Shown here: one piece after another, positions 1,435 to 52,166 of the stretch
Layout of the letters: each line of letters starts with the position of its first letter
Numbering within the stretch: position 1 is the first letter of the stretch
Assembly (NCBI RefSeq): GCF_021530995.1
Contig: NZ_JADYTF010000009.1
Span: 1-53,126 of the forward strand
Reading direction: 5' to 3'
Source of the DNA: Bacteroides caecigallinarum
Lineage (GTDB): Bacteria; Bacteroidota; Bacteroidia; Bacteroidales; Bacteroidaceae
DNA: 53,126 nucleotides
Translations under genes and position numbers: made by a program
The notes under the pieces: generated by a model
The model's database searches: none
What the model was told of the DNA's origin: nothing
Seen by the model: the letters and a program-made list of their open reading frames with translations, nothing else

Positions 1435-1450
1435 CACCACTAAATCCAAA
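1435..1450 (+). promoter_or_regulatory. RteR-like sRNA target motif in the exc leader
   Basis: CACCACTAAATCCAAA lies 32 nt before the exc ATG. It is the exact complement of 16 nt of the small RNA encoded at about 3664-3744 (sRNA bases 3700-3715). The same motif recurs before traI and traN. That it is a pairing site is inference. Confidence 0.55.
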
Positions 1451-1481: not shown

Positions 1482-3572
1482 ATGAAAACAATCATAGCAG
1501 AAAAGCCCAGTGTGGCACGTGAAATTGCCCGCATCGTGGGTGCCGGCAAGCGAGAGGAAGGTTATCTGACCGGAAACGGTTATAATGTGACATGGGCATT
1601 CGGACATCTTGTCCAGCCCGCCATGCCGGAAGAATACAACCTGCACGGCTTTGTACGCAGCAACCTGCCCATCATTCCCGAAACCTTCACGCTTGTTCCC
1701 CGACAGGTAAGGACGGAAAAAGGATACAAGGCGGACAGCAGCGTGGTCGCCCAGATAAAAATCATTACCAGACTGTTCAAGGACAGCGAGCAGATTATTG
1801 TGGCGACCGATGCCGGCCGCGAGGGTGAGCTGATATTCCGATACCTCTATCATTATATCGGCTGTACGGTCCCGTTCGTGCGTCTGTGGATAAGCAGCCT
1901 GACGGACAAGGCTATCCGTGAGGGACTGAAACATCTTGAAGACGGAAGCAAGTATGACAACCTTTACCATGCCGCCAAAGCCCGAAGTGAAGCCGACTGG
2001 CTGGTGGGGATAAACGGAACGCAGGCACTGTCCATCGCAGCCGGACGCGGAACCTACTCGGTGGGACGTGTCCAGACGCCGACACTGGCGATGATCTGTG
2101 AACGTTATTGGGAAAACCGCCGTTTCACCCCCGAAGCCTTCTGGCAGCTGCATATCTCGGCAAAGGTACAGGACAGTGACGGAGTTGTGAAAATGCCGTC
2201 GGTGGAGAAATGGAAGGACAAGGCAACCGCAACAGCCCTATATAATAATGTAAAGGAGAGCAACACGGCTACTGTCGTGAAAGTCGAACGAAAGGAGAAA
2301 ATCGAAGAAACACCGCTTCTGTATGACCTGACCACACTCCAGAAGGATGCGAACACGAAGTACGGGTTCACGGCAGAGCAAACACTCGACATCACGCAGA
2401 AACTTTATGAGAAGAAACTCGTCACCTATCCCCGAACCGGCAGCCGATACATCCCGGAAGATGTCTTTGCGGAAATACCAAAACTGCTGGCTTTCATCGG
2501 CAGGCTCTCACAATGGAGCGGCAAAATCCCGCAAAAGCCGGAGCCTACCCGAAGAAGCGTTGATGACAGCAAGGTAACAGACCATCACGCACTGCTGGTT
2601 ACGGGAGAAAAGCCCCTGTTCCTTTCCGAAGATGAAAGCAAGGTGTACCATCTGATAGCGGGACGCATGATAGAAGCCTTTTCGGAAAAATGCGTGAAGG
2701 ACGTGACAGCCGTCACGGTGGAATGTTCCGGCGTGGTGTTCTCAGCCAAAGGTCATGTAGTGAAACAGGCCGGATGGCGTGTCGTCTGCAAGGAAGAACA
2801 GGAAGAGACGATACTTCCGGACTGGAAAGAAGGGGAACTGCTGCACCTCAGCGGCTGTTCCATGACCGAAGGAAAGACCAAGCCCAAGCCTCTCCATACG
2901 GAAGCCACCCTGCTCTCGGCGATGGAAACGGCCGGCAGGGAAATCGAGGACGAGGAACTGCGTCAGGCACTGAAGGACTGCGGTATCGGAACTCCCGCCA
3001 CCCGTGCCTCCGTCATTGAAACGCTCTTTGCCCGCGAATATGTGACAAGGCAGAAGAAATGCCTTGTGCCCACAGAAAAAGGGCTTGCCCTCTATTCCAT
3101 TGTCAAGACCATGCGCATTGCCGACGTAGCCATGACCGGCGAATGGGAAAAGGAACTGGCGTGTATCGAACGCGGAGAGATGCCTGTCGGAAAGTTCCGC
3201 AAGGAGATTGAGGAATATGCGACGTCCATCACCTCCGAACTGCTGTCGTGCGAAAAGCTGTTCGGGAAAAAGGATTCAGGCTGCACGTGTCCCAAGTGCG
3301 GAACGGGCAGGATGCAGTTCTTCGGCAAGGTGGTACGATGCGACAACACGGAATGCGGCCTGCCCATATTCAGGCTGAAAGCCAACAGGATGCTTACCGA
3401 CGATGAAATCAGGGAACTGCTGACAAAGGGAAAGACGGGTGTCCTGAAGGGATTCAAGAACAAGCAGGGCAAGCGTTTCGATGCCGCCCTGGTCTTTGAT
3501 GCCGACTTCAACACCGGTTTTGTCTTTCCGGAAAGAAAGGACGGTGCGGCATCCGCAAAAAAGAGAAAGTGA
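1482..3572 (+). CDS. topB: DNA topoisomerase III (Exc), type IA
   Basis: A 696-residue type IA topoisomerase, which passes single strands through a transient 5'-phosphotyrosine break. It starts with the Toprim motif (MKTIIAEKPSVAREIA) and has a second Toprim acidic motif (ATDAGREGELIFRY, about residue 110). The active site is TYPRTGSRYI with Tyr316, and the C-terminus carries a four-Cys zinc ribbon (CPKCG...CDNTECG, about 605-625). The commoner D of YPRTDSRYL is G here, as I recall from element-borne TopB. In CTnDOT the homolog is Exc, encoded at the end of the excision operon. The order DUF3945 gene, exc, RteR-like RNA is preserved here. The leader carries a CACTAAATCC-type motif complementary to that RNA. 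Confidence 0.95.
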   Translation: MKTIIAEKPSVAREIARIVGAGKREEGYLTGNGYNVTWAFGHLVQPAMPEEYNLHGFVRSNLPIIPETFTLVPRQVRTEKGYKADSSVVAQIKIITRLFKDSEQIIVATDAGREGELIFRYLYHYIGCTVPFVRLWISSLTDKAIREGLKHLEDGSKYDNLYHAAKARSEADWLVGINGTQALSIAAGRGTYSVGRVQTPTLAMICERYWENRRFTPEAFWQLHISAKVQDSDGVVKMPSVEKWKDKATATALYNNVKESNTATVVKVERKEKIEETPLLYDLTTLQKDANTKYGFTAEQTLDITQKLYEKKLVTYPRTGSRYIPEDVFAEIPKLLAFIGRLSQWSGKIPQKPEPTRRSVDDSKVTDHHALLVTGEKPLFLSEDESKVYHLIAGRMIEAFSEKCVKDVTAVTVECSGVVFSAKGHVVKQAGWRVVCKEEQEETILPDWKEGELLHLSGCSMTEGKTKPKPLHTEATLLSAMETAGREIEDEELRQALKDCGIGTPATRASVIETLFAREYVTRQKKCLVPTEKGLALYSIVKTMRIADVAMTGEWEKELACIERGEMPVGKFRKEIEEYATSITSELLSCEKLFGKKDSGCTCPKCGTGRMQFFGKVVRCDNTECGLPIFRLKANRMLTDDEIRELLTKGKTGVLKGFKNKQGKRFDAALVFDADFNTGFVFPERKDGAASAKKRK

Positions 3573-3626: not shown

Positions 3627-3658
3627 TTTCGTATTTCATCCGGATTGGACTACCTTTG
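3627..3658 (+). promoter_or_regulatory. Promoter of the RteR-like small RNA
   Basis: TACCTTTG at 3651-3658 is a perfect Bacteroides -7 box. A TTTC at 3627-3630 stands 20 bp upstream in the place of the -33 TTTG. Transcription should start near 3664. It lies about 55 bp after the exc stop. Confidence 0.65.
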
Positions 3659-3663
3659 CCACT

Positions 3664-3744
3664 GATTCAAGGTTCATAAATCATCATACTGATCAAGACT
3701 TTGGATTTAGTGGTGGCACTCGGAGGGATACCGGGTGCCTTTTT
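3664..3744 (+). ncRNA. rteR: RteR-like small antisense RNA
   Basis: A consensus promoter and a strong terminator bracket about 80 nt with no convincing ORF, directly downstream of exc. This is where CTnDOT encodes RteR, a small RNA that acts in trans to lower tra gene expression. Bases 3698-3714 read ACTTTGGATTTAGTGGT, which is the exact complement of the sequence just before the traN start and of closely related sequences before exc and traI. The segment lies immediately 5' of the terminator stem, a usual place for an sRNA seed. Identity with RteR is inferred from position and size. An open frame running through it (ATG-like start at 3701) is rejected as non-coding. Confidence 0.7.
3715..3744 (+). 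terminator. Intrinsic terminator of the RteR-like RNA
   Basis: Stem GGCACTCGG (3715-3723) pairs with CCGGGTGCC (3731-3739) with one G-U pair. The loop is 7 nt and a TTTTT tract follows. Confidence 0.85.
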
Positions 3745-3799
3745 CTTCCCCTTCCCCGTATATCCGGACATTTGTCAAATCACTAAATCCATTGTAAAA

Positions 3800-33014: not shown

Positions 33015-33056
33015 AAGCAAGTATAATCAGCTGTTTTTTTGTCCGACAAAACAAAT

Positions 33057-33097
33057 GGGCGGAACAGGATTTAACTTGCTCCGCCCGTTTTCTTTTT
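33057..33097 (+). terminator. Intrinsic terminator after the nuclease gene
   Basis: GGGCGGA (33057-33063) pairs with TCCGCCC (33080-33086), then GTTTTCTTTTT. The 16-nt loop region can extend pairing through AAC. Confidence 0.8.
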
Positions 33098-33155
33098 CAG
33101 TTGCCAGCTATGGATTCGTCTGTATTGCAATCTCATAGTTTTCATTCATTTATTC

Positions 33156-33184
33156 TTGAAACTCACTTAAAAGCAGTACCTTTG
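33156..33184 (+). promoter_or_regulatory. Promoter of the Abi gene
   Basis: TTG (33156-33158), 18 bp, TACCTTTG (33177-33184). It lies 23 bp before the Abi start codon. Confidence 0.7.
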
Positions 33185-33207
33185 CATGAAATTTGTGCAA
33201 TAGGAAC

Positions 33208-34170: not shown

Positions 34171-34183
34171 TCCGTCCGAAGTA

Positions 34184-34213
34184 TTGCGGATTGAGAAAAA
34201 AAACGTACCTTTG
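34184..34213 (+). promoter_or_regulatory. Orphan promoter between the Abi gene and mobC
   Basis: TTG (34184-34186), 19 bp, TACCTTTG (34206-34213). No ORF follows before the terminator at 34309-34344. Confidence 0.65.
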
Positions 34214-34219
34214 CAACAT

Positions 34220-34344: not shown

Positions 34345-34346
34345 GA

Positions 34347-38128: not shown

Positions 38129-38144
38129 ACTTAGGATTTAGCGG
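38129..38144 (-). promoter_or_regulatory. Variant sRNA target motif in the mobA leader
   Basis: On the minus strand CCGCTAAATCCTAAGT is followed by AAT and the ATG, the same spacing as CCACTAAATCCAAAGT-AAA-ATG at traN. Pairing with the sRNA would have one G-U pair and one mismatch. Confidence 0.45.
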
Positions 38145-38400
38145 TTACACGGCACAAGCCCCGCCTTGGGGACATTCCACCGCAGGTTTTTCAGGCTTCC
38201 CGACTTCGGAGAGGAAGCCCGCCCCCTGCAAGGGCAAGTGCTTTTCAGGGATGCTCAAATCATTTTGAGCCGCTGAAAAGACATCTTGCTGTTGGCTGGA
38301 GCCAACAAAAATCCGTCGGGGACGGATTGGAAAGGAAACCTTCAGACCCACGGCTTCGCCCGTAGCGGGAAACCCTGCCGTTCGGGGGCAAAGTTACGGT
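38145..38400. other. Probable oriT: cluster of hairpins upstream of mobA
   Basis: Between divergent mob and tra genes lie at least five hairpins: GGCTTCC/GGAAGCC (about 38192-38218), a long interrupted one CTTTTCAG-GCTCAAA with TTTGAGC-CTGAAAAG (38241-38280), GTTGGCT/AGCCAAC (38291-38306), ATCCGTC/GACGGAT (38311-38327), and GC-rich repeats to 38390. TAACTTTG on the minus strand (38389-38396) is a -7 box for mobA, so its leader contains these hairpins. The position next to the relaxosome genes fits oriT; the nic site cannot be seen. Confidence 0.55.
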
Positions 38401-38827: not shown

Positions 38828-39595
38828 ATGACAATGAGTAATGAAATCTTCGTTGCATTCGCAACACAGAAAGGCGGTATCGGAAAATCCACCATTACGG
38901 CGCTTGCCGCCAACTATCTCCACAACGTGAAAGGTTACAATGTAGCCGTGATAGACTGCGATGCCCCGCAGCACAGCATCTACGGACTCCGTGAGCGCGA
39001 AACAAAACTGATTGACGAGAGCCGGTACTTCAAGGCACTCGCCTGCGAGCATTTCCGCAAGCTGAAAAGGAATGCCTATCCGGTCATTGCCAGCGATGCG
39101 GTGAACGCCCTTGATGACGCGGAAAAGCTGATAAGCGGGGAAGCGGTCAAGCCGGACATCGTGTTTTTTGACATGCCGGGAACGCTCAAAAGCAACGGCG
39201 TGGTGAAAACCCTGTCGCAAATGGACTATATCTTCGCCCCCATGAGTGCCGACCGCTTTGTCGTGGAAAGTACGCTGCAATTCGCCGCTATGTTCCGTAA
39301 CAACCTCATGACGACGGGGCGGTCGAAAACCAAAGGACTGTACCTGTTCTGGACGATGGTGGACGGCAGGGAGAAGAACGGGCTGTATGATGTTTATGAG
39401 GACGTCATAGCGGACATGGGACTTTCGATACTCTCGACCCGCCTGCCGGACAGCAAGAAATTCCGACGCGACCTTTCGGAAGAACGAAAAAGCGTGTTCC
39501 GCTCGACCATATTCCCCACTGAGGCGTCACTCCTGAAAGGGAGCGGCATCCGCGAGTTTTCGGAAGAGATATGTAAAATCATTACCGGGCGTTGA
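38828..39595 (+). CDS. traA: TraA, ParA/MinD-family ATPase
   Basis: A 255-residue ParA-like ATPase with a deviant Walker A (ATQKGGIGKSTITALAANYL, from residue 11), VAVIDCDAPQ and DIVFFDMPG. It is the first gene of the tra operon in CTnDOT-type elements, where it is called TraA; the exact role in transfer is not established to my knowledge. ATG 38828 and ATG 38834 are both possible. It is followed after 2 bp by traB. Confidence 0.9.
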   Translation: MTMSNEIFVAFATQKGGIGKSTITALAANYLHNVKGYNVAVIDCDAPQHSIYGLRERETKLIDESRYFKALACEHFRKLKRNAYPVIASDAVNALDDAEKLISGEAVKPDIVFFDMPGTLKSNGVVKTLSQMDYIFAPMSADRFVVESTLQFAAMFRNNLMTTGRSKTKGLYLFWTMVDGREKNGLYDVYEDVIADMGLSILSTRLPDSKKFRRDLSEERKSVFRSTIFPTEASLLKGSGIREFSEEICKIITGR

Positions 39596-39597
39596 GC

Positions 39598-40020
39598 ATG
39601 GGCAGCAGGAAAGTGAATACGGAGGACATTGACGAGGAACTGTTGATCGCCTCTATCGGCAGACGCACGCAGGACGGCAACACACGGCCTGCACAGGAAC
39701 CTCCTGCCGTTCCGGCCGAAGAAAGTACAGGCGGAACGGAACCGCCGGCGGCAAAGGAGAAAACGTCAAGGGAAAGCAGCCGACGGAAACGGCAGGAGGA
39801 AGACTATATGATGTTTCTGCGCCGCAATGAGCTGAAAACCCGCCAGTGTGTCTATATCAGCCGCGACGTACACAGCAAGATTCTGAAAATCGTGAATGAC
39901 ATTGCCGGACGTGAGATAACTGTCGGCGGCTACGTGGACACCGTACTGCGGCAACATCTGGAACAGCACAAGGAACAGATCAACGAACTGTACAAGAAAC
40001 AAAGAGATGATTTAATCTAA
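39598..40020 (+). CDS. traB: TraB, DUF3408 protein
   Basis: A 140-residue protein with an acidic, Pro/Glu-rich N-terminal half and a C-terminal DUF3408 domain (TRQCVYISRDVHSKILKIVN, GGYVDTVLRQHLEQH), which looks like a ribbon-helix-helix fold. The pair traB-traC are paralogs. ATG 39598 was chosen over TTG 39592. It is probably a DNA-binding protein paired with TraA. Confidence 0.8.
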   Translation: MGSRKVNTEDIDEELLIASIGRRTQDGNTRPAQEPPAVPAEESTGGTEPPAAKEKTSRESSRRKRQEEDYMMFLRRNELKTRQCVYISRDVHSKILKIVNDIAGREITVGGYVDTVLRQHLEQHKEQINELYKKQRDDLI

Positions 40021-40032
40021 AAATCAACGACA

Positions 40033-40389
40033 ATGGAACATAAAAAAAGAAAAGCAAGACCGCATGACAGCGGCAAGGAAATGATTACCGTCGGGATACA
40101 GACGAACGTGGAAATCGTGTCGTCCTCACCGGCAAGGGGCAAATACAGCGAAAAGGAGTATGAACGGCTGTTCATCCGGGAGTCCGGGATGCGGGCACGC
40201 GACGGGAAAATGACATATATACGCCGTGAATACCATAACCGCATCAGGCGTATCATACGGGTCATCGGACATGACCGGCTCTCGATGTCGGCCTACATCG
40301 ACCATGTGCTGACCCTGCATTTCGGGCAGTCCGACGAGGCAATAAAAAGCCTGTACGAGAAGAATTATGAAAAGGAATATCAACCATAA
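40033..40389 (+). CDS. traC: TraC, DUF3408 protein
   Basis: A 118-residue paralog of traB (MTYIRREYHNRIRRIIRVIG, MSAYIDHVLTLHFGQ), with a short basic N-terminus in place of the acidic half. It is 12 bp after traB. Likely a DNA-binding partner; the function is unproven. Confidence 0.8.
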   Translation: MEHKKRKARPHDSGKEMITVGIQTNVEIVSSSPARGKYSEKEYERLFIRESGMRARDGKMTYIRREYHNRIRRIIRVIGHDRLSMSAYIDHVLTLHFGQSDEAIKSLYEKNYEKEYQP

Positions 40390-40399
40390 GAATGAAACG

Positions 40400-40477
40400 A
40401 TGAAAAGAAGACAGGAAAACAGAAAATGCGCGAGTGAGAAACATAAGTCCAACATAAACGACGGAAAACGCCCATGA
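40400..40477 (+). CDS. Short basic ORF coupled to traD
   Basis: A 25-codon frame (MKRRQENRKCASEKHKSNIN...) whose stop overlaps the traD start as ATGA. It is rich in Lys/Arg. It may only serve to couple translation; coding is uncertain. Confidence 0.3.
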   Translation: MKRRQENRKCASEKHKSNINDGKRP

Positions 40478-41202
40478 GCCTGACCACAATCCTATTGACC
40501 GTATCGGTCGCCTGCAACGTATGGTTCGTGTTCCTGCTCATGTATGACCGGATCATGGAAACGAGGCTGTTCCGCTTCTTCGGGAAACTGGCAGGCATCT
40601 GGAAGTCACTCCATGCAGAGGAAAAGGACAGCAGCCCGGAAGCGGATGCGTCCGCCACCGCCACGGCACCGGAAATCATCGGCAAGAGCCGTTTCAGAAT
40701 GACGGTAACCCGGACAATGACTACCGTACCGAAGCCACAAGCTGCCACTTCGGATAAAGGCGAGGAAGTGCAGAGTGATGATGTTACCTTTGCCGACGAA
40801 GCCGAAAGGAAGACGGCACGGGTACCGGAAGAGAAGTTCGACGAAGTATTCAGCAACATACCTCCTGAAGAGGTTGAGTACGGCGAAGGTGAACCGGAAG
40901 AGGAAACCCCGGACAGACGTCAGGCTTCCGGCAGCAGCTTTGACGAGATTGAAAAGGCCGTCAAGACCGCCCGAAATCCAGATGCGACACGGACGGAACG
41001 TGAACAGGCTGCAAAGGTATTTGTCGAAATGGAGGGTACGGAGCTGTATGACATGCTTATGGAAGGTTCCACCGAAATGAGCGTCCGTATCAAGGGGCTG
41101 ATTGAAATCCGGTTGAAAGAGCAGGAAGTCGAGTTTCTGGTACCCGACAACATCGACGAGTTTGACATCCGCAAATATGCAACGACAACCAAAAAGGAAT
41201 GA
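40474..41202 (+). CDS. traD: TraD, conjugal transfer protein
   Basis: A 242-residue protein with one N-terminal membrane segment (LTTILLTVSVACNVWFVFLL), a disordered acidic middle (about residues 48-150) and a helical C-terminus (FDEIEKAVKTARNPDATRTE, then ELYDMLMEGSTEM). By position it is the CTnDOT TraD. The function is unknown; unrelated to F-plasmid TraD. Confidence 0.8.
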   Translation: MSLTTILLTVSVACNVWFVFLLMYDRIMETRLFRFFGKLAGIWKSLHAEEKDSSPEADASATATAPEIIGKSRFRMTVTRTMTTVPKPQAATSDKGEEVQSDDVTFADEAERKTARVPEEKFDEVFSNIPPEEVEYGEGEPEEETPDRRQASGSSFDEIEKAVKTARNPDATRTEREQAAKVFVEMEGTELYDMLMEGSTEMSVRIKGLIEIRLKEQEVEFLVPDNIDEFDIRKYATTTKKE

Positions 41203-41294
41203 AGAAAGAACAGTAGTACCGACCCCCGGAAAGCGGATACAAGGTAACCGCCTGCCGGAACGGACAATCCCAAGTCCGTGGAACCAAAAGGGAG

Positions 41295-41309
41295 ACCACT
41301 AAACCAAAA
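41295..41309 (+). promoter_or_regulatory. Variant sRNA target motif before traE
   Basis: ACCACTAAACCAAAA: as the traN motif but with one T missing. It lies about 68 nt before the traE ATG and 12 nt before a 19-codon ORF. Confidence 0.4.
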
Positions 41310-41320
41310 ACAAAATCAGT

Positions 41321-41380
41321 ATGAACCGCCGGAAGAAGGACTATCCACCCTTTGACGGCACAAACAAAAAGTATTTATGA
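41321..41380 (+). CDS. Short ORF coupled to traE
   Basis: A 19-codon frame (MNRRKKDYPPFDGTNKKYL) whose stop overlaps the traE start as ATGA, just as the short frame before traD does. Its ATG follows AAAATCAGT, the same sequence that precedes the exc ATG (CAAATCAGT). Confidence 0.35.
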   Translation: MNRRKKDYPPFDGTNKKYL

Positions 41381-41694
41381 ACAGAAACATCAAGAACAGC
41401 AAGAAAATCATCCTTTCGGCAGCACTTCTCATCGCTGCCGCATCATCCGCTTTCGCACAGGACAACGGACTGGCAGGCATCAACGAGGCCACTTCAATGG
41501 TCACTTCCTATTTTGACCCCGGAACGAAGCTGATATACGCCATCGGCGCCGTTGTCGGTCTGATAGGCGGCGTAAAGGTCTATGGCAAATTCTCGTCCGG
41601 TGATCCTGACACCAGCAAGACCGCCGCTTCGTGGTTCGGTGCGTGTATCTTCCTGATTGTGGCGGCGACAATCCTCCGTTCATTCTTCCTTTAA
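41377..41694 (+). CDS. traE: TraE, DUF4134 membrane protein
   Basis: A 105-residue protein with a cleavable signal (IILSAALLIAAASSAFAQ) and two further membrane segments (LIYAIGAVVGLIGGVKVYG, SWFGACIFLIVAATILRSFF). This is the DUF4134 family, with the size and topology of VirB2-type pilin subunits. It is followed 8 bp later by traF. Confidence 0.9.
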   Translation: MNRNIKNSKKIILSAALLIAAASSAFAQDNGLAGINEATSMVTSYFDPGTKLIYAIGAVVGLIGGVKVYGKFSSGDPDTSKTAASWFGACIFLIVAATILRSFFL

Positions 41695-41702
41695 TATACG
41701 GT

Positions 41703-42035
41703 ATGGCTGAATATCCGATCAACAAGGGTATCGGCCGTTCGGTTGAGTTCAAGGGACTAAAGGCACAATACCTGTTCATCTTCGTGGGCGGGCTTCTGGC
41801 CCTCTTTGTCCTGTTCGTCATCCTCTATATGGTCGGAACCGACCAGTGGATATGTATCGGCATCGGTGCGGCAGGCGCCTCCGTCCTTGTATGGCAGACC
41901 TTCGCGCTGAATGCCCGGTACGGCGAACACGGGCTGATGAAGCTGGGTGCCGCAAGAAGCCATCCCCGTTACCTGACCAACCGTCGGCGCATTGCCCGGC
42001 TGCTTAAACGAAAAAGAAAGGAAGAGAAAATATGA
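41703..42035 (+). CDS. traF: TraF, DUF4133 membrane protein
   Basis: A 110-residue inner-membrane protein (MAEYPINKGIGRSVEFKGLK, then two membrane segments LFIFVGGLLALFVLFVILYM and WICIGIGAAGASVLVWQTFA) with a basic C-terminus. VirB3-like by size, topology and position before the VirB4-type ATPase. I chose ATG 41703, not an in-frame start at 41631 inside traE. It overlaps traG by 4 bp. Confidence 0.9.
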   Translation: MAEYPINKGIGRSVEFKGLKAQYLFIFVGGLLALFVLFVILYMVGTDQWICIGIGAAGASVLVWQTFALNARYGEHGLMKLGAARSHPRYLTNRRRIARLLKRKRKEEKI

Positions 42036-44542
42036 GAAACGTATCAAGAATAACTACACTGGAAAACAAGTTCCCCCTGCTTGCAGTGGAACACGGCTGC
42101 ATCGTATCAAAGGATGCCGACCTGACGGTCGCCTACGAAGTCGAACTGCCGGAGCTTTACACGGTCACGGGTGCGGAGTACGAGGCGATACACGGGTGCT
42201 GGTGCAAGGCCATCAAGGTGCTGCCGGACTTCTCCATCGTCCACAAGCAGGACTGGTTCATCCGTGAGACGTACAGACCGGAACTGCAAAAGGAGGACAT
42301 GAGCTTCCTCTCGCGCAGCTTCGAGCGTCATTTCAACGAGCGACCCTATCTGCGCCACACCTGCTACCTGTACCTGACGAAAACGACCAGGGAACGCAAC
42401 CGGATGCAGAGCAACTTCAGCACGCTGTGCAGGGGGCACATCATCCCGAAGGAACTGGACAGGGAAACATCGGAAAAGTTTCTGGAGGCAACAGAACAGT
42501 TCGCCCGTATCATGAACGACAGCGGCTTTGTCCGACTGCGCCGGCTCGGTACGAATGAGATAGTCGGCACAGACGACAGGAAGGGACTGTTGGAACGCTA
42601 TTTTTCGCTGATGTCTGAAAACGACGTCGCCCTGCAGGACATCGACCTTTCGGCAAAGGGGATGCGTATCGGTGACAATTACCTGTGCCTGCACACGCTT
42701 TCCGACACGGAGGACCTGCCCGGCAAGGTGGCTACCGACAGCCGCTATGAGCGTCTTTCCACCGACCGCTCGGACTGCCGTCTTTCGTTTGCCAGTCCCG
42801 TGGGACTGCTGCTTCCATGCAACCATGCCTATAACCAGTATGTGATACTGGACAACAGCGAGGAGAACCTGCGTAAGTTCGAGAAGTCCGCCCGCAACAT
42901 GCAATCCCTGTCCCGCTATTCAAGGAGCAACAGCATCAACCGTGAATGGATAGACCAGTACCTGAACGAAGCCCATTCCTACGGGCTGACCTCGGTACGC
43001 GCACATTTCAATGTCATGGCGTGGAGCGATGATGCGGAGGAACTCCGGCACATCAAAAATGACGTGGGCAGCCAGCTGGCAAGCATGGAGTGTATGCCCC
43101 GGCACAACACCGTTGACTGTCCGACCCTGTTCTGGGCGGCCATACCTGGCAATGCCGCCGATTTCCCTGCTGAAGAGAGCTTCTACACCTTCACCGAACA
43201 GGCGGTATGCTTCTTTACGGAAGAGACCAACTACCGCAGCTCGCTTTCGCCTTTCGGTATAAAGATGGTGGACCGTCTGACGGGAAAGCCGCTGCACATC
43301 GACATTTCCGACCTTCCGATGAAACGCGGCATCACGACCAACCGCAACAAGTTCGTGCTGGGACCGAGCGGCAGCGGCAAGTCGTTCTTCATGAACCATC
43401 TTGTCCGGCAGTATTATGAACAGGGAACGCACGTTGTCCTTGTGGATACCGGAAACTCGTATCAGGGATTGTGCGAAATGATCCGGCGCAAGACACACGG
43501 CGAAGACGGCGTATATTATACCTACACAGAGGAAAAGCCCATTTCGTTCAATCCGTTCTATACGGACGACTATGTGTTTGACGTGGAGAAGAAGGACAGC
43601 ATCAAGACCCTGCTGCTGACCATCTGGAAATCGGAGGACGACAAAGTATCAAAGACCGAAAGCGGAGAGCTGGGCAGCGCCGTGAACGCCTACATAGAGC
43701 GTATCAAGGCAGACCGGAGCATCGTCCCCTCGTTCAACACCTTTTACGAATACATGCGCGATGACTACCGCCGTGAACTGGCCGGACGTGAAATCAAGGT
43801 AGAGAAGTCCGACTTCAACATTGACAACATGCTGACCACCATGAGGCAATACTACAGGGGCGGACGCTATGACTTCCTGCTGAACTCGGAGGAAAACATC
43901 GACCTGCTGAACAAGCGGTTCATCGTGTTCGAGATTGATTCCATAAAGGAAAACCGCGAACTGTTTCCGGTGGTGACCATCATCATCATGGAGGCGTTCA
44001 TCAACAAGATGCGCCGCCTGAAGGGAGTGAGAAAACAGCTGATTGTGGAAGAAGCCTGGAAAGCACTCTCGTCGGCGAACATGGCGGAATATCTCCGCTA
44101 CATGTACAAGACGGTGAGAAAGTATTTCGGCGAGGCGATTGTCGTCACGCAGGAAGTGGACGACATCATTTCCTCGCCCGTGGTCAAGGAGAGCATCATC
44201 AACAATTCCGACTGCAAGATACTGCTTGACCAGAGGAAGTACATGAACAAGTTCGACCAGATACAGACCCTGCTCGGACTGACGGAAAAGGAGAAGTCGC
44301 AGATTCTTTCCATCAACATGGCGAACAACCCGTCGCGGCTCTACAAGGAGGTGTGGATAGGGCTTGGCGGTACGCAGTCGGCAGTCTATGCCACGGAAGT
44401 GAGTCCGGAGGAATATCTGGCTTATACGACGGAAGAATCGGAAAAGACGGAGGTTTACCGCCTGGCGGAAAAACTGGGCGGTAACATAGAGGGAGCCATC
44501 CGGCAGCTTGCGGAAAGAAGGCGCGAAGAACGGAAAGGCTGA
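42032..44542 (+). CDS. traG: TraG, VirB4-family conjugation ATPase
   Basis: An 836-residue ATPase that powers the transfer channel. The N-terminal half is the VirB4/CagE region. Walker A is GPSGSGKS (444-451) and Walker B lies in KQLIVEEAWKAL; EAIVVTQEVDDI follows. The ATG overlaps the traF stop. This is the longest and best-conserved gene of the mating apparatus in the window. Confidence 0.95.
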   Translation: MRNVSRITTLENKFPLLAVEHGCIVSKDADLTVAYEVELPELYTVTGAEYEAIHGCWCKAIKVLPDFSIVHKQDWFIRETYRPELQKEDMSFLSRSFERHFNERPYLRHTCYLYLTKTTRERNRMQSNFSTLCRGHIIPKELDRETSEKFLEATEQFARIMNDSGFVRLRRLGTNEIVGTDDRKGLLERYFSLMSENDVALQDIDLSAKGMRIGDNYLCLHTLSDTEDLPGKVATDSRYERLSTDRSDCRLSFASPVGLLLPCNHAYNQYVILDNSEENLRKFEKSARNMQSLSRYSRSNSINREWIDQYLNEAHSYGLTSVRAHFNVMAWSDDAEELRHIKNDVGSQLASMECMPRHNTVDCPTLFWAAIPGNAADFPAEESFYTFTEQAVCFFTEETNYRSSLSPFGIKMVDRLTGKPLHIDISDLPMKRGITTNRNKFVLGPSGSGKSFFMNHLVRQYYEQGTHVVLVDTGNSYQGLCEMIRRKTHGEDGVYYTYTEEKPISFNPFYTDDYVFDVEKKDSIKTLLLTIWKSEDDKVSKTESGELGSAVNAYIERIKADRSIVPSFNTFYEYMRDDYRRELAGREIKVEKSDFNIDNMLTTMRQYYRGGRYDFLLNSEENIDLLNKRFIVFEIDSIKENRELFPVVTIIIMEAFINKMRRLKGVRKQLIVEEAWKALSSANMAEYLRYMYKTVRKYFGEAIVVTQEVDDIISSPVVKESIINNSDCKILLDQRKYMNKFDQIQTLLGLTEKEKSQILSINMANNPSRLYKEVWIGLGGTQSAVYATEVSPEEYLAYTTEESEKTEVYRLAEKLGGNIEGAIRQLAERRREERKG

Positions 44543-44558
44543 AAAATGAAAAAGATTC

Positions 44559-45209
44559 ATGAATAAAAAAACTGACAATATGGATATGGACAACGCATAC
44601 ATGAGAGCCGAACAGAAAAGGCAGGAAACGGAAAGACATGCCACCCGGCTCAAGGAGTTCCTCATATACGGTGCCGACATACCGGAAGACATCCAGAAGC
44701 AGTACGGCTTTTCGGAAGACTACCGGCTGTATAAGGAACTTGAGGAAATGGACAGCAGGCAGTACAGCGAGAAAAGACAGAAAGGGGAAGTCCCGGATGC
44801 CGGAAAAGTCGGCGGAAGACTTACCCGTGCAGTGGAAAAGGCATACGAAAGCATCTGCGGCAGTCCTTCGAGAGTGTATATCGAAGGACTTTACAAGGAA
44901 CTTCTGCTGCTCGGAGGCATGACCGTAAGGAAAGATTATGACGACCCGGTACATTACAACCCCGGCTTCTTTGACAAATACGGAATTGACCGCAAGGCTC
45001 CCCGCGAAACCATTCTCAGGCAGGTGGAACAGGCATACAGGGAACTGGACAGCCGCTTTTCGAGAATGACGGGCAGAAGGTCGGACGCGGACGAGCTGTT
45101 CGGCAAGCCGAAGGAGAAACAGGCGGTACAGCCAAGGAAGGAAAATCCGGACCGCCCTGCACCGGGTATCCGCCCTTGCAGGCCGAAAGGCAGGAGAATG
45201 GGCTTCTGA
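44559..45209 (+). CDS. Conserved hypothetical protein between traG and traH
   Basis: A 216-residue, highly charged soluble protein (ERHATRLKEFLIYGADIPED, HYNPGFFDKYGIDRKAPRET) with a Pro/Arg-rich basic tail. No domain recognised. ATG 44559 follows traG by 16 bp; ATG 44580 is an alternative. It may be an assembly factor of the channel, inferred only from position. Confidence 0.7.
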   Translation: MNKKTDNMDMDNAYMRAEQKRQETERHATRLKEFLIYGADIPEDIQKQYGFSEDYRLYKELEEMDSRQYSEKRQKGEVPDAGKVGGRLTRAVEKAYESICGSPSRVYIEGLYKELLLLGGMTVRKDYDDPVHYNPGFFDKYGIDRKAPRETILRQVEQAYRELDSRFSRMTGRRSDADELFGKPKEKQAVQPRKENPDRPAPGIRPCRPKGRRMGF

Positions 45210-45261
45210 ACCGGAGCAAATAACAAAGAAAACAACAGTAACATCAAAAAAAAGAAAAAGT

Positions 45262-45660
45262 ATGGACATTCAGATTACAAAATCCCAGCTCAGACTGCTT
45301 TGCGGCGGTCTGATAGGACTTGCATCACTGGTGATGCAGGCATGTGACATGGAACAGGACAAGGACGTGCGCGAAAGCATCTGCGGTAACTGGGAAAGCG
45401 TGGAAAGCAAACCCGACCTGCTCATCTACAAGGAAGGAAATGCGTACAAGGTGACCGTATTCAAACGCAGCGGCATAAGCCGCAAGCTGAAGCCGGAAAC
45501 CTATCTGCTGCAGATGGAAGACAACGGAAACCTGTTTATGAATACCGGATTCCGCATAGATGTGGCGTACAATGAGGAAACGGACATCCTGACCTTCTCG
45601 CCGAACGGGGACTATATAAGGGCCACTCCCGCAGCAGACAACGCGGAAGACAGACAATGA
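45262..45660 (+). CDS. traH: TraH, DUF3876 lipoprotein
   Basis: A 132-residue protein with a hydrophobic N-terminus ending in a lipobox-like MQAC (residues about 26-29). The core GNWESVESKPDLLIYKEGNA matches the DUF3876 family. It is likely a periplasmic lipoprotein of the mating channel. The position between the ATPase and TraI matches CTnDOT TraH. Confidence 0.8.
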   Translation: MDIQITKSQLRLLCGGLIGLASLVMQACDMEQDKDVRESICGNWESVESKPDLLIYKEGNAYKVTVFKRSGISRKLKPETYLLQMEDNGNLFMNTGFRIDVAYNEETDILTFSPNGDYIRATPAADNAEDRQ

Positions 45661-45671
45661 AACCGATAATG

Positions 45672-45687
45672 ACCACTAAATCCAAAG
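45672..45687 (+). promoter_or_regulatory. sRNA target motif in the traI leader
   Basis: ACCACTAAATCCAAAG, 16 nt exactly complementary to the RteR-like RNA (bases 3699-3714), ends 7 nt before the traI ATG. Confidence 0.6.
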
Positions 45688-45694
45688 AAAGAAA

Positions 45695-46324
45695 ATGAGA
45701 ATAAAAATTCTGACAATCTTCTGCCTGTGCCTGCTTTACGCAGGCAGGGCAAGCGCACAATGGGCGGTCATAGACCCGTCCAACATTGCGCAAAGCATCA
45801 TAAACACCTCGAAGAATGTGGCGCATACCTCGACCACCGCAACGAATATGGTCAAGAACTTTCAGGAGACCGTCAAGATCTACGAGCAGGGAAAGAAGTA
45901 TTATGACGCGCTGAAATCGGTGAACAATCTTGTAAAAGACGCCAGAAAGGTGCAGCAGACCATCCTGATGGTGGGCGACATCACGGACATCTATGTGAAC
46001 AGTTTCCAGAAGATGATGCGTGACGAGAACTTCACCGTGGAGGAACTCGGAGCCATCGCGTTCGGATATACCAAACTGCTTGAGGAAAGCAATGACGTGC
46101 TGACGGAACTGAAGAACGTGGTGAACATCACCACACTCTCGATGACGGACAAGGAACGCATGGACGTGGTGGAACGCTGCTACTCGAAAATGAGAAGATA
46201 CCGGAACCTTGTCGGCTATTATACCAACAAGAACATTTCGGTAAGCTATCTGCGTGCGAAAAAGAAAAACGACCTTGACCGCGTGCTGGGTCTTTACGGA
46301 AATGCAAACGAAAGATACTGGTAG
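45695..46324 (+). CDS. traI: TraI, DUF4141 protein
   Basis: A 209-residue secreted protein with a signal peptide (LTIFCLCLLYAGRASAQW) and a helical body (IAQSIINTSKNVAHTSTTAT, IYEQGKKYYDALKSVNNLVK). DUF4141 family; VirB5-like by topology and position ahead of the polytopic TraJ. The leader carries the sRNA-complementary motif. It is 3 bp before traJ. Confidence 0.88.
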   Translation: MRIKILTIFCLCLLYAGRASAQWAVIDPSNIAQSIINTSKNVAHTSTTATNMVKNFQETVKIYEQGKKYYDALKSVNNLVKDARKVQQTILMVGDITDIYVNSFQKMMRDENFTVEELGAIAFGYTKLLEESNDVLTELKNVVNITTLSMTDKERMDVVERCYSKMRRYRNLVGYYTNKNISVSYLRAKKKNDLDRVLGLYGNANERYW

Positions 46325-46327
46325 CCT

Positions 46328-47332
46328 ATGGACTTTGAAAACCTTCATCAGATACTCCGCTCGCTTTACGAGGAGATGATGCCCCTGTGCGAGGACATGG
46401 CCGGTGTCGCGAAAGGGATTGCCGGTCTGGGTGCGCTGTTCTATGTCGCCTACCGTGTGTGGCAGTCACTTGCCAGGGCGGAACCGATAGAGGTGTTCCC
46501 CATGCTGCGCCCCTTTGCGATAGGATTCTGCATCATGCTTTTCCCGTCGCTTGTTCTGGGAACGCTCAACGGGGTCATGTCGCCCATCGTTCAGGGAACG
46601 GCAAAGATACTGGAGGCGGAAACGCTGGACATGAACGAATACCGCAAGCAGAAAGACGAGCTTGAACATGAGGCGATGATGCGCAATCCGGAAACCGCCT
46701 ATCTTGTCAGCAACGAGGAATTTGACAGGCAGCTGGACGAACTGGGCTGGTCGCCGGAGGACGTGGTGACCATGACGGGAATGTATATCGAACGTGGCAT
46801 GTACAACATGAAAAAGTCCGTGCGTGACTTCTTCCGCGAGATACTCGAACTAATGTTCCAGGCTGCCGGTCTTGTCATAGACACCATACGCACGTTCTTT
46901 CTCGTGGTGCTGGCGATACTCGGTCCGATAGCCTTCGCCATATCGGTATGGGACGGTTTCCAGAGCACGCTGACGCAGTGGATCTGCCGCTATATACAGG
47001 TTTACCTGTGGCTTCCCGTATCGGACATGTTCAGTACGGTGCTGGCAAAGATACAGGTACTGATGCTGCAAAGCGACATCGAACGTATGCAGGCGGACCC
47101 GAACTTCTCTCTTGATTCGAGCGACGGCGTGTATATCGTATTCATGATAATCGGGATTATCGGATACTTTACCATTCCGACCGTATCGGGCTGGATCATT
47201 CAGGCCGGAGGCATGGGCAACTACGGACGCAACGTCAATCAGGTAGCCGGAAAATCCGCCGGATTCACAGGCAGTGTTGCCGGTGCCACCGCCGGAAACG
47301 TGACGGGACGTGTGGGCAAGCTGCTGAAATAA
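46328..47332 (+). CDS. traJ: TraJ, polytopic inner-membrane protein
   Basis: A 334-residue protein with multiple membrane segments (FAIGFCIMLFPSLVLGTLNG, TIRTFFLVVLAILGPIAFAI, YIVFMIIGIIGYFTIPTVSG) and a Gly/Ala/Val-rich end. VirB6/TrbL-like role in the mating channel is inferred from topology and position. CTnDOT TraJ family. Confidence 0.9.
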   Translation: MDFENLHQILRSLYEEMMPLCEDMAGVAKGIAGLGALFYVAYRVWQSLARAEPIEVFPMLRPFAIGFCIMLFPSLVLGTLNGVMSPIVQGTAKILEAETLDMNEYRKQKDELEHEAMMRNPETAYLVSNEEFDRQLDELGWSPEDVVTMTGMYIERGMYNMKKSVRDFFREILELMFQAAGLVIDTIRTFFLVVLAILGPIAFAISVWDGFQSTLTQWICRYIQVYLWLPVSDMFSTVLAKIQVLMLQSDIERMQADPNFSLDSSDGVYIVFMIIGIIGYFTIPTVSGWIIQAGGMGNYGRNVNQVAGKSAGFTGSVAGATAGNVTGRVGKLLK

Positions 47333-47365
47333 ACCAACAGAACAACTAAAAACAGATAAAGTAAT

Positions 47366-47989
47366 ATGGAATTCAAGTCATTGAAGAATATTGAAACATC
47401 ATTCAGGCAGATACGCCTGTTCGGTATCGTCTTCCTGTCACTGTGTACCGTGATAACGGTGTGGAGCGTATGGAGTTCCTACCGCTTTGCGGAGAAGCAG
47501 AGGGAAAAGATTTATGTGCTGGACAACGGCAAGAGCCTGATGCTGGCTCTCTCGCAGGACCTTTCACAGAACCGTCCTGCGGAAGCCCGCGAGCATGTAC
47601 GTCGCTTTCACGAACTGTTCTTTACCCTGTCACCGGAGAAGAGCGCCATCGAGCACAATGTGAGACGTGCCCTGCTACTGGCAGACCGCAGCGTGTATAA
47701 CTATTACTCGGACTTTGCGGAAAAGGGCTACTACAACCGCATCATTGCCGGCAATATCACGCAGGTGCTGAGAGTGGACAGCGTGGTGTGCGATTTCGAG
47801 CATTATCCCTACCGTGCGACCACCTATGCCACCCAGCAGATAATCCGTCAGAGCAACGTCACAGAGCGCAGCCTCGTGACGACCTGCCGCCTGCTGAACG
47901 CCTCGCGGTCTGACGACAATCCCAACGGATTCACGATAGAGGGGTTCACCATCATAGAGAACAAGGACCTGCAAACCGTCAAAAGATAA
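47366..47989 (+). CDS. traK: TraK, conjugal transfer protein (VirB8-like)
   Basis: A 207-residue protein with one N-terminal membrane segment (LFGIVFLSLCTVITVWSVWS) and a periplasmic domain of about 160 residues (LSQDLSQNRPAEAREHVRRF, NRIIAGNITQVLRVDSVVCD). The topology fits VirB8. Its leader (AACAACTAAAAACAG) is only loosely like the sRNA target motif. Confidence 0.88.
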   Translation: MEFKSLKNIETSFRQIRLFGIVFLSLCTVITVWSVWSSYRFAEKQREKIYVLDNGKSLMLALSQDLSQNRPAEAREHVRRFHELFFTLSPEKSAIEHNVRRALLLADRSVYNYYSDFAEKGYYNRIIAGNITQVLRVDSVVCDFEHYPYRATTYATQQIIRQSNVTERSLVTTCRLLNASRSDDNPNGFTIEGFTIIENKDLQTVKR

Positions 47990-47993
47990 TGGA

Positions 47994-48305
47994 ATGAAAG
48001 AAAAAGCAATGAAACCGCTGCGGATGGCATATGAGAAAATCCGCGGTACAAGAGAGCGGATAGTTTCCGGACTGAAGGACTATCTGGACGGACTTCCGCA
48101 AAAGACAAGGAAAAGAATCATACTGGCTATGCTGGCCGTATTTGCCACGCTTGCCCTTTACACGTTCGGAAAGTCGCTGTACGATATAGGACGTGATGAC
48201 GGACGGAAACTGAATATCGGACACGCCGGACAGCTCCCCGTAAAGGGAGAATGCGGCGGCAAGATTCATCACAATTTTATAAAACAGTATAAGGATGGAA
48301 AATAA
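47994..48305 (+). CDS. traL: TraL, DUF3989 protein
   Basis: A 103-residue basic protein with one central membrane segment (RIILAMLAVFATLALYTFGK). This is the DUF3989 family, encoded between traK and traM in CTnDOT. It overlaps traM by 11 bp. Confidence 0.85.
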   Translation: MKEKAMKPLRMAYEKIRGTRERIVSGLKDYLDGLPQKTRKRIILAMLAVFATLALYTFGKSLYDIGRDDGRKLNIGHAGQLPVKGECGGKIHHNFIKQYKDGK

Positions 48306-49626
48306 GGAAACAAGAAAAGAGAACGGGGACAGCCCCGAAAAGAAGAACAGGGAACGTACACCACTGACGGAGGCGCAAAGGCTGAAACGTCAGAAGATGA
48401 TAGTCCTGCCTGCAATGGTTCTGGTCTTCATCGGTGCCATGTGGCTGATATTCGCTCCCTCTTCCGACAAGGAGGAACAGCCGGGTGCGACGGGCTACAA
48501 CACGGAGATACCGGATGCGGACAAGGACAACAGGAAGATTATCGGTGACAAGGTCAAAGCCTACGAGCAGGGAGAAATGGAGGAACGCAGGGCAAGCCGC
48601 AACCATGCCATGCAGGAACTCGGCAGCATGTTCGACCGGGAAGTTTCCGTGACCGGGGACAATCCGGACTTCGACCTTGCCAGTCCCGGTGGCGGAAGTG
48701 ATACGGATACGGCATCATCGCCGGCTTCGCAGACAATCAGGTCATCGGCCACCGCCTACCGTGACCTGAACGCCACGCTCGGCAACTTCTATGAGCAGCC
48801 TTCGGGAAACAGTGCTGAAATGGAGGAGCTGATGGAGCGCATATCCTCGCTGGAAACGGAACTTGAAAGGGAGAAGGAAAAAGGTTCCTCGATGGACGAG
48901 CAGGTGGTGCTTATGGAAAAGTCGTATGAACTGGCATCCAAATACATGGGCGGTCAGAACGGACAACAGACAGCACAGGCATCGCCGGCACGGAAGGCGG
49001 AAGAGCATACGGCAATGCCGGTCAAGCAGGTTACCAGACAGGTGGTTTCCTCCCTTGCACAGCCTATGAGCAATGCGGAATTTGCCGCCATGTATGCACA
49101 GGAGCGCAACATGGGTTTCCATACGGCAGTGGGAAGCCGTACGGTATCGGACAAGAACACCATATCGGCATGTGTCTATGGGGCACAGAGCGTGACGGAC
49201 GGGCAGGCTGTCCGGCTGCGGCTTCTGGAGCCGATGGCGGTTGCGGAGAAAATCATCCCACGCAATGCCGTACTTGTCGGAGCGGCAAGGATTCAGGGTG
49301 AACGTCTCGGCATAGCAGTCACTTCGCTGGAACATGAGGGGACGATCATTCCGGTTGAGCTTTCCGTTTACGACACGGACGGACAGGAAGGAATCTTCAT
49401 CCCGAACTCGATGGAAATGAACGCAGTCCGTGAGGTAGCCGCCAATATGGGCGGATCGCTCGGCAGCAGCATCAACATCTCCACCGATGCGAAGGCACAG
49501 CTCGCCTCCGATCTGGGCAAGGGGCTGATACAGGGCACAAGCCAGTATATAGCCAAGAAGATGCGTACCGTCAAGGTACATCTGAAAGCCGGATACAAGG
49601 TCATGCTGTATCAGGACAGAAATTAA
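48295..49626 (+). CDS. traM: TraM, VirB10-like channel protein
   Basis: A 443-residue protein with a basic cytoplasmic start, one membrane segment (IVLPAMVLVFIGAMWLIFAP, near residue 40), a Glu-rich coiled coil (about 180-215) and a C-terminal beta domain (ISACVYGAQSVTDGQAVRLR, IPRNAVLVGAARIQGERLGI) like that of TrbI/VirB10. It probably spans the periplasm in the channel core. Confidence 0.92.
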   Translation: MENKETRKENGDSPEKKNRERTPLTEAQRLKRQKMIVLPAMVLVFIGAMWLIFAPSSDKEEQPGATGYNTEIPDADKDNRKIIGDKVKAYEQGEMEERRASRNHAMQELGSMFDREVSVTGDNPDFDLASPGGGSDTDTASSPASQTIRSSATAYRDLNATLGNFYEQPSGNSAEMEELMERISSLETELEREKEKGSSMDEQVVLMEKSYELASKYMGGQNGQQTAQASPARKAEEHTAMPVKQVTRQVVSSLAQPMSNAEFAAMYAQERNMGFHTAVGSRTVSDKNTISACVYGAQSVTDGQAVRLRLLEPMAVAEKIIPRNAVLVGAARIQGERLGIAVTSLEHEGTIIPVELSVYDTDGQEGIFIPNSMEMNAVREVAANMGGSLGSSINISTDAKAQLASDLGKGLIQGTSQYIAKKMRTVKVHLKAGYKVMLYQDRN

Positions 49627-49652
49627 CAACAAAAAATTATCAATTTATTATT

Positions 49653-49669
49653 ACCACTAAATCCAAAGT
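49653..49669 (+). promoter_or_regulatory. sRNA target motif in the traN leader
   Basis: ACCACTAAATCCAAAGT is the exact complement of RteR-like RNA bases 3698-3714 (17 of 17) and ends 3 nt before the traN ATG. Pairing would cover the ribosome-binding region. Confidence 0.65.
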
Positions 49670-49672
49670 AAA

Positions 49673-50692
49673 ATGAAAAAAGTAATTATGATGTTCGCCC
49701 TGTTTATGGGCATCGTATCTGCCCAAGCGCAGGAAAACAAGACCGCCGAAGAAAACGGAAGTGACAGACCGGCTCAGGAAGTGAAGCAGGAAGAGGTTCA
49801 GAAACTCTCTCTGAGCAAAGAAATCTATCCGCAGAAAGAGGCGGACGGCGACCTGTATCACGGTCTGACCCGCAAGCTGACCTTTGACCGCATGATACCG
49901 CCGCACGGACTGGAAGTGACCTACAACAAAACCGTGCATATAATCTTTCCGTCAGAGGTGCGCTACGTGGACCTGGGCTCACCGAACCTTATTGCCGGAA
50001 AAGCGGACGGGGCTGAGAATGTGATAAGAGTGAAAGCTACGGTAAGAAATTTCCAGAACGAGACGAACATGAGCGTCATCACGGAGGACGGCGGCTTTTA
50101 CACCTTCAACGTCAAATATGCGGAAGAGCCGCTGCTCCTCAATGTGGAGATGTGCGACTTCATCCACGACGGTGAAGCGGTGAACCGTCCGAACAACGCG
50201 ATGGAGATTTACCTGAAGGAACTGGGGAATGAAAGTCCGATGCTGGTGCGTCTTATCATGAAGTCCATCCACAGACAGAACAAGCGTGAGGTGAAGCATA
50301 TCGGCTGCAAGCGTTTCGGTATCCAGTATATCCTCAAAGGCATCTATACGCATAACGGACTTCTGTATTTCCATACGGAAATCAAGAACCAGAGCAACGT
50401 CCCGTTTGACGTGGACTATATCACATGGAAAATCGTGGACAAGAAGGTGGCAAAGCGTACAGCCGTGCAGGAACAGGTCATTCTTCCGCTCCGTGCGCAG
50501 AACTATGTGACCTGCGTGCCGGGAAAGAAAAAGGAACGTACCGTGTTCACGATGTCCAAGTTCACCATTCCGGACGACAAATGCCTCGTGGTGGAACTGC
50601 ATGAGAAGAACGGAGGACGTCACCAGTCCTTTACCGTAGAGAACGAGGATCTGGTACGAGCCACAACGATTAACGAACTTCAGGTACGATGA
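49673..50692 (+). CDS. traN: TraN, DUF4138 protein
   Basis: A 339-residue secreted protein with a signal peptide (VIMMFALFMGIVSAQAQE). It has the DUF4138 signature (GLEVTYNKTVHIIFPSEVRY, DLGSPNLIAGKADGAENVIR), probably a VirB9-like outer channel component. It is led by the strongest copy of the sRNA target motif and overlaps traO by 4 bp (ATGA). Confidence 0.9.
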   Translation: MKKVIMMFALFMGIVSAQAQENKTAEENGSDRPAQEVKQEEVQKLSLSKEIYPQKEADGDLYHGLTRKLTFDRMIPPHGLEVTYNKTVHIIFPSEVRYVDLGSPNLIAGKADGAENVIRVKATVRNFQNETNMSVITEDGGFYTFNVKYAEEPLLLNVEMCDFIHDGEAVNRPNNAMEIYLKELGNESPMLVRLIMKSIHRQNKREVKHIGCKRFGIQYILKGIYTHNGLLYFHTEIKNQSNVPFDVDYITWKIVDKKVAKRTAVQEQVILPLRAQNYVTCVPGKKKERTVFTMSKFTIPDDKCLVVELHEKNGGRHQSFTVENEDLVRATTINELQVR

Positions 50693-51270: not shown

Positions 51271-51277
51271 GACGGGT

Positions 51278-52165: not shown

Positions 52166-52166
52166 G

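Follow-up and report, generated by a model that had tools for sequence, protein, structure and literature searches.

A diverged RteR-type RNA and its coevolving candidate leader sites in a CTnDOT-type conjugative element of Bacteroides caecigallinarum

How could one small RNA hold down genes scattered over a conjugative element, and do so unevenly along one long transfer operon? The question arises from a 53,126-nucleotide (nt) stretch of Bacteroides caecigallinarum DNA (NZ_JADYTF010000009.1), here called the window, which is one entire contig (G000:C392) of a 3.73-Mb assembly and contains a large part of a CTnDOT-type conjugative element, including a topoisomerase gene that we take to be exc, a DUF1896 gene, mobA-C and the tra operon. 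The literature describes RteR as a small RNA acting on the tra operon and causing its discoordinate expression, and the title of the RteR paper, as it stands in a reference list, says that it inhibits transfer (accessible part of PMC7366714).

A first-pass annotation of the window proposed that one RteR-like RNA represses many genes of an operon of about 14 kb by pairing at several ribosome-binding regions. The pairing is upheld here by coevolution, while the repression would rest on the role published for RteR (PMC7366714, in its accessible part); that the RNA represses, by any route, is what we infer. The reading developed below, to which we give a probability of roughly 0.85, is that of a diverged RteR-type repressor whose seed, by pairing with several leaders of one element, keeps their translation from starting. 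That the RNA is a brake on gene transfer and works by pairing is very likely.

An RNA gene after exc and its candidate sites

The RNA gene sits between exc (1482-3572) and the DUF1896 gene, which starts at ATG 3800, and would be transcribed, as an RNA of about 80-86 nt, from a promoter of its own. Its predicted parts are as follows.

3651..3658, + strand: promoter box TACCTTTG of the Bacteroidetes -7 type, read from the sequence
3659..3744, + strand: predicted gene of the RteR-like small RNA, with promoter box, hairpin, terminator and post-exc position common to relatives
3659..3674, + strand: 5' arm pairing with the seed and resembling a leader site, from the predicted fold and arm-seed covariation
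3698..3714, + strand: seed ACTTTGGATTTAGTGGT with core TGGATTTAGTGG, complementary to the leader sites and located in the 3' arm of the hairpin
3715..3744, + strand: intrinsic terminator (stem 3715-3739, U run 3740-3744), from fold and covariation

The consensus of the Bacteroidetes -7 box is TAnnTTTR, and it is found immediately 5' of the RNA in 16 of 17 folded RNAs, the exception being G059_C16 with TACCTTCG. Judged from this box, the 5' end of the window RNA is predicted within 3659-3665 and the 3' end in the U run, which gives 86 nt from the first base after the box through the U run. The fold z-score of 3660-3744 is -4.51, and a long 5' hairpin followed by a terminator is predicted in all RNAs folded (17, then 8 more).

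Six leaders in the window carry a candidate site for the seed.

1435..1450, + strand: exc leader site, 16/16 against 3700-3715, 31 nt 5' of ATG 1482, duplex -20.4 kcal/mol
3780..3791, + strand: DUF1896 gene leader site, core CACTAAATCCA at 3781-3791, 8 nt 5' of the ATG, duplex -19.1 kcal/mol
38129..38145, - strand: mobA leader site, one G-U pair and one mismatch, 3 nt 5' of ATG 38125, duplex -23.0 kcal/mol
41295..41309, + strand: traE leader site, one base missing, 67 nt 5' of ATG 41377, duplex -16.6 kcal/mol
45672..45688, + strand: traI leader site, 16/17 (45672-45687 match 16/16 and the 17th base differs), 7 nt between the end of the 16-nt match and ATG 45695, duplex -23.1 kcal/mol
49653..49669, + strand: traN leader site, 17/17 against 3698-3714, 3 nt 5' of ATG 49673, duplex -25.2 kcal/mol

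The letters bear out the perfect matches that the first-pass annotation had read at traN, traI and exc, its variants at traE, mobA (spanning 38145-38129) and the DUF1896 gene, and the distance of 3 nt that separates the motif from the ATG at traN and, on the minus strand, at mobA. Such complementarity is not expected by chance. When up to three mismatches in 17 are allowed, six places are found in the window (the RNA itself included, traE with its missing base excluded) against 0.11 expected, and none of 100 shuffles reached six; perfect runs of at least 13 occur at three places besides the RNA and in none of 60 shuffles (an approximate dinucleotide shuffle). Among the 134 open reading frames (ORFs) that begin with ATG, hold at least 80 codons and lie on either strand, the strongest duplexes over the leader stretch from -70 to +15 belong to traN (-25.2), traI (-23.1), mobA (-21.0), exc (-20.4) and DUF1896 (-18.5 kcal/mol), the sixth being -16.6 and the median -9.7 kcal/mol; the traE site falls mostly upstream of this stretch. 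All duplex energies were computed with RNAduplex, which leaves internal structure out of account.

Across the whole assembly, the core CCACTAAATCCAAA occurs at 12 places when one mismatch is allowed: once in the window RNA gene, ten times in leaders of element-type genes and once on C81, where a copy of the pre-exc stretch continues differently. The ten leaders are those of exc, traI and traN in the window, of traN, traI, traE and mobA on C22, of a DUF1896 gene on C247, and of helix-turn-helix (HTH) genes on C9 and C176. The two HTH genes among the ten, with the site directly 5' of the start, code for small excisionase-like proteins (L013 8992-9309 and L011 2392-2713), which score 50.4 and 42.7 bits against PF12728, over its cutoff of 27, and 28.7 and 23.6 bits against TIGR01764, under its cutoff of 28.8. 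This placement suggests that excision genes may also be among the targets. The source assembly holds at least three such elements, on C392, on C247 with C22 (assumed to be one element, as are two contigs of G289) and on C110, with two RNAs of the GGATTTAGTGG class and one of the GAAATTTTAGTGG class. In other collections, the exact window-class RNA pattern was matched by three records among plasmids and by none among viral contigs.

How far may this RNA be called RteR? It lies at 3659-3744, immediately downstream of exc, the place that we take to define RteR, and by prediction it shares with RteR of CTnDOT a length of about 90 nt and a hairpin followed by an intrinsic terminator, the tra operon being the regulated target. 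At the Rfam gathering cutoff, the whole window gave no match. In a 201-nt search the RNA scores 42.4 bits (E 9.9e-6) against rteR (RF04181), whose cutoff is 72, and it is therefore regarded as a diverged RteR-type RNA and not as a formal member; the earlier label 'RteR-like' holds by place and weak homology and fails as formal membership. Further, the window seed belongs to the GGATTTAGTGG class, whereas the Rfam rteR consensus shows the GAAATTTTTGTGG type. The corresponding RNA of the Bacteroides fragilis element NZ_OR675140 (L016), which carries tet(Q) and rteA/B/C-like genes, scores 39.2 bits. The cutoff is passed by the sources of three of seven relatives (94.3, 93.5 and 79.6 bits), which have other seed classes at the same place.

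As to the surroundings of the RNA, two larger features frame the element in the window.

1482..3572, + strand: exc, type IA topoisomerase gene (PF01131), directly upstream of the RNA
38828..52685, + strand: tra operon, traA to traQ, with PF19044 (TraG), PF07863 (TraJ), PF12508 (TraM), PF13605 and PF13595

The TraG, TraJ, TraM and TraN families are all represented in the operon, and the tra genes without a family match were named by gene order and by the annotation of L016. The annotated traG of L016 is shorter than that of the window, and the tra region of L016 encloses some 11 kb (32379-43275) that bring integrases and mobilisation genes of their own. A long gene of the window resembles the N-6 DNA methylase of L016.

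Coevolution of seed, 5' arm and leaders

If the sites are targets of the RNA, seeds and leaders should change together among relatives. The RNA of each relative was sought by its place after exc and not by its seed, using a seed-free pattern (promoter box, start of the 5' arm, GTGG) on the stretch that follows exc, 1,000 nt long at most, 157 nt for G053 and 632 nt for G371. Of 33 element sets 23 gave the RNA, as did 16 of the 50 named loci covered out of 80 returned, and a reading by eye agrees. The pattern was not found after exc in G166_C16, G372_C2, G292_C1b, G189_C20, G189_C15, G277_C63, G371_C61, G082, G186 and G053; in G166_C16 the traN site is kept and only a terminator-like remnant follows exc. 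Among the 50, no locus from Flavobacteriia or Sphingobacteriia gave the RNA by this pattern, which an RNA placed elsewhere or of other make would escape.

The mean duplex energy of the target leaders with their own seed was compared with that obtained when seeds were randomly dealt among elements. In set 1 (15 elements, 70 leaders) the means were -18.5 for own and -14.6 for permuted seeds; in set 2, taken from another collection (12 elements, 22 leaders), -18.2 and -13.5; and in a pooled set of 19 distinct 16-nt seeds (67 leaders), -19.7 and -14.3. The outcome was 0/20,000 permutations in all three, and likewise for the seeds that do not end in GGATTTAGTGG (12 elements, 37 leaders), where the own seed was best in eight of 12. 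Taken gene by gene in the pooled set, the counts out of 20,000 were 0 for exc, 0 for DUF1896, 1 for traN and 2 for traE. The leaders of other genes, the control drawn from the same elements, gave no clear effect in set 1 (178 leaders, 17,818/20,000) or in the pool (159 leaders, 1,567/20,000). Seeds and leaders thus change together in two element sets, the signal being strongest at exc, DUF1896, traE and traN and fainter at traI and mobA. The outcome that the first-pass annotation had named as a refutation, altered seeds in relatives beside unaltered leaders, was not obtained.

As for the composition of the sets, the pool keeps one element per 16-nt seed (29 entries reduced to 19). Set 1 omits as near copies G000_C110, G258_C1b, G266, G105, G277_C9, G292_C1a, G356_C3 and G388_C22, and set 2 omits L146, L147, L149 and L183, whose seed is identical to that of L145 and L148. 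The G320 seed was placed at a wrong GTGG in set 1 and the pooled run has the right seeds; the exc leader site of G000_C247 (L012 9803) falls just outside the leader stretch used. Since the two sets come from two collections, strains or elements may overlap between them.

The letters themselves make the matching changes visible. In L016 the sites precede the same six genes as in the window (exc, DUF1896, mobA, traE, traI and traN). A class of elements with seed TTGAAATTTTAGTGG has leaders carrying CCACTAAAATTTCAA, and in set 2 the seed CTGTGGATTTAGTGG goes with CCACTAAATCCACAG and CTGATTTTTTTAGTGG with CCACTAAAAAAATCAG. At traE, the leader of G258 (seed AATTGAAATTTTAGTGG) reads CCACTAAAATTTCAAATTAT, that of G059_C3 (seed AATTGAGGATTTTTGTGG) reads CCACAAAAATTCTCAATTATT, and that of G230, whose seed TGCTATTGAATTTTTTTAGTGG has seven T, reads CCACTAAAAAAATTCAATAGTAAC with seven A; G372 has six T in the seed and six A in the leaders. 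In G352 the seed ACTGTTGAA is accompanied by the exc leader CAACAGTA. More distant elements also hold a matched seed and site, at exc in a Prevotella sp. (L144) and a Rikenellaceae element (L152), and at both exc and DUF1896 in Dysgonomonas (L143) and two Bacteroidales C35 elements (L151, L154).

Two side observations concern these relatives. The DUF1896 leaders in L020, L021 and L038 carry CCATTAAAACCAAAT before the ATG, possibly a further type of site, and G189 and G277, which have CCATTAAAACCAAAT before DUF1896, showed no RNA within 1,000 nt after their exc genes. Separately, L113 7199-7497, within a G230 element, contains two Rfam group II intron domains (RF02001 and RF01998).

The RNA's own 5' arm is drawn into the same pattern. 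Its first 18 bases pair with the own seed at -16.3 and with permuted seeds at -11.0 (0/20,000 permutations among 22 RNAs, with the L151 seed placed at a wrong GTGG), and since the arm pairs better with its own seed than with those of others, it behaves as an internal copy of the target. Seed, 5' arm and leaders show a three-way coevolution. In the RNAalifold consensus, six of 15 pairs have two-sided changes; five of those six are in the terminator stem, where five of eight consensus pairs change on both sides with retained pairing. The inner seed stem is missing from that consensus because it does not align. Within the seed class of the window, the constant part is only about 11-12 nt (TGGATTTAGTGG), and the 5' extension of the seed, ACTTT, tracks the hairpin of the RNA and not all the targets.

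Overall, the RNA has two marks of a trans-acting base-pairing small RNA, namely complementarity to leaders beyond chance and, between relatives, seed and target changes that compensate each other, and the predicted pairing of seed and target leaders is well supported by the coevolution.

From pairing to probable repression

How would such pairing act? The RNA would fold into a hairpin with the seed as its 3' arm and the terminator hairpin behind it. Since the 5' arm copies the target site imperfectly, it may hold the seed in the stem until a better-matching leader displaces it, with the GUGG end perhaps as the entry point for pairing. The seed would then pair with sites of 11-17 bases in the window, and in relatives of as many as 21 consecutive bases, and pairing 3-31 nt before the starts of exc, DUF1896, mobA, traI and traN and 67 nt upstream of traE would block ribosome entry. 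Bacteroidetes are, to our knowledge, without strong Shine-Dalgarno signals. That the sites end 3 nt (traN, mobA), 7-8 nt (traI, DUF1896) and 31 nt (exc) before the ATG favours a block of ribosome entry. In this way one RNA would restrain excision and mobilisation as well as the tra operon at three points inside it, with traA-traD spared, and message loss or early termination may follow the translation block. With sites at traE, traI and traN and none at traA-D, the arrangement would explain why tra expression under RteR is reported to be discoordinate (PMC7366714, accessible part).

Several observations weigh against this reading. In the pooled set, the own seed is best or tied in only 10 of 19 elements, and the signal is weak at traI (224/20,000) and mobA (507/20,000). 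The other-gene control of set 2 (26 leaders) leaned in the same direction as the targets (625/20,000), and the permutations treat related elements as independent, the untargeted leaders of the same elements being the control for this. Among the set 1 sharers of the GGATTTAGTGG core, the window's seed ranks 3-4 of 15 for its own leaders, because its 5' extension does not track leaders. By prediction the RNA keeps its seed paired internally, a cost on binding that is absent from the duplex energies. The sites are also unevenly kept: traI sites were seen in the GGATTTAGTGG class only; in the GAAATTTTAGTGG class, exc and mobA both lack one; and no site was found at mobA in G059_C19 and G059_C3, at traI in G289 or at traN in G352. 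Finally, the RNAs of L107, L109, L113 and L115 are under the rteR cutoff.

Of the other explanations, the one that survives best overlaps with ours, since the pairing is common to both and only the later step differs: pairing may act mainly through early transcription termination or message decay, possibly with the participation of a hairpin in the traE leader.

41326..41359, + strand: hairpin between the traE site and traE, loop ACTATCCA, from loop conservation and a covarying stem

All 11 traE leaders of set 1 (window, L009, L016, L070, L077, L080, L086, L094, L111, L114 and L115) have this hairpin after the traE site, with a nearly fixed loop, ACTATCCA in ten and ATTATCCA in one, and three of its five consensus pairs have two-sided changes that preserve pairing. 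Together with the discoordinate operon expression ascribed to RteR (PMC7366714, in part), the hairpin lends some weight to a terminating or destabilising step. However, the sites of traN, mobA and DUF1896 come almost up to the start codon and no U run follows the traE hairpin of the window, so that termination or decay as the main step is considered possible but rather doubtful.

Some further details of this leader deserve mention. A kissing loop between the terminator loop (GGGATA) and the traE loop (TATCC) was rejected as a general rule, given that the traE loop stays ACTATCCA while the terminator loops elsewhere are GGGAAA, GGGACA or GGGGAC. A stretch resembling the traE hairpin precedes traN in G059_C3 (L055). 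A 19-codon ORF (41321-41380) begins 11 nt past the traE site, runs into the traE start (ATGA) and is not conserved, as ACC or ATC replaces the ATG in relatives such as L016 and L094.

Pairing could also be real and have the opposite sign, so that it activates or stabilises the transfer messages. Some small RNAs do open an inhibitory leader structure; yet five of the six window sites end at most 31 nt from the start codon, four of them at most 8 nt, and inhibition of transfer is what the RteR title listed in PMC7366714 states, which leaves activation highly unlikely. A still slimmer chance is given to the leader motif being the binding site of an element-encoded protein (DNA or RNA binding), with the RNA gene merely holding a copy. 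Repeats of this kind in several leaders are often operators, but the motif is in sense in those target leaders that were read and in antisense in the RNA gene, it varies in length and letters between elements yet remains a complement of the RNA, even in its count of A and T, and the 5' arm of the RNA changes too. Coincidence or shared descent, a functionless repeat spread by recombination in leaders and RNA, can draw on the relatedness of the elements and the likeness of sites within one element and is hardly credible, as the signal is at target-gene leaders with none clear at others, sites tens of kb from one another change in step, and permuted seeds reach cognate pairing in 0/20,000 (pooled).

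Comparison with other RNAs and the prospect of element-specific codes

A diverged RteR-type repressor with several pairing sites would resemble other known RNAs in part. GibS and FopS of Bacteroides thetaiotaomicron are likewise trans-acting with short seeds, and GibS binds translation initiation regions, whereas their targets are chromosomal metabolic or polysaccharide utilisation locus genes and those of the window RNA lie within one mobile element; the FopS seed is in a single-stranded 5' stretch and the window seed in a hairpin arm (PMC11697453, accessible part). FinP of F-like plasmids is also an element-encoded RNA that lowers conjugation genes (PMC9299015, accessible part). FinP is, however, antisense to one message (traJ), while the window RNA would act in trans on several leaders that share one site. 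In the open-licence literature searched, no description was found of a seed for RteR, of multi-site or coevolving RteR targets, or of this mechanism and coevolving code for a known RNA type; the primary RteR papers lie outside that literature and may propose a target site.

It is tentatively suggested that the sets of seed and sites are element-specific codes that have diversified among Bacteroidales conjugative elements and give rise to RNA-based regulatory immunity groups among co-resident elements, an idea with analogies in the antisense copy-control RNAs of plasmids and in phage repressors. If true, an incoming element that has the same code as a resident one would find its transfer and excision genes silenced by the resident's RNA, which would ignore elements of other codes.

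RteR is known as a repressor of CTnDOT transfer, and the sites described here offer a candidate answer, at the level of letters, to how one RNA makes an operon of about 14 kb discoordinate. The mapped sites in six leaders would extend the proposed control to excision and mobilisation genes, and the code shifts between elements with pairing retained. In this family of elements, a frequent vehicle for the spread of antibiotic resistance, the sequence may thereby reveal both seeds and targets.
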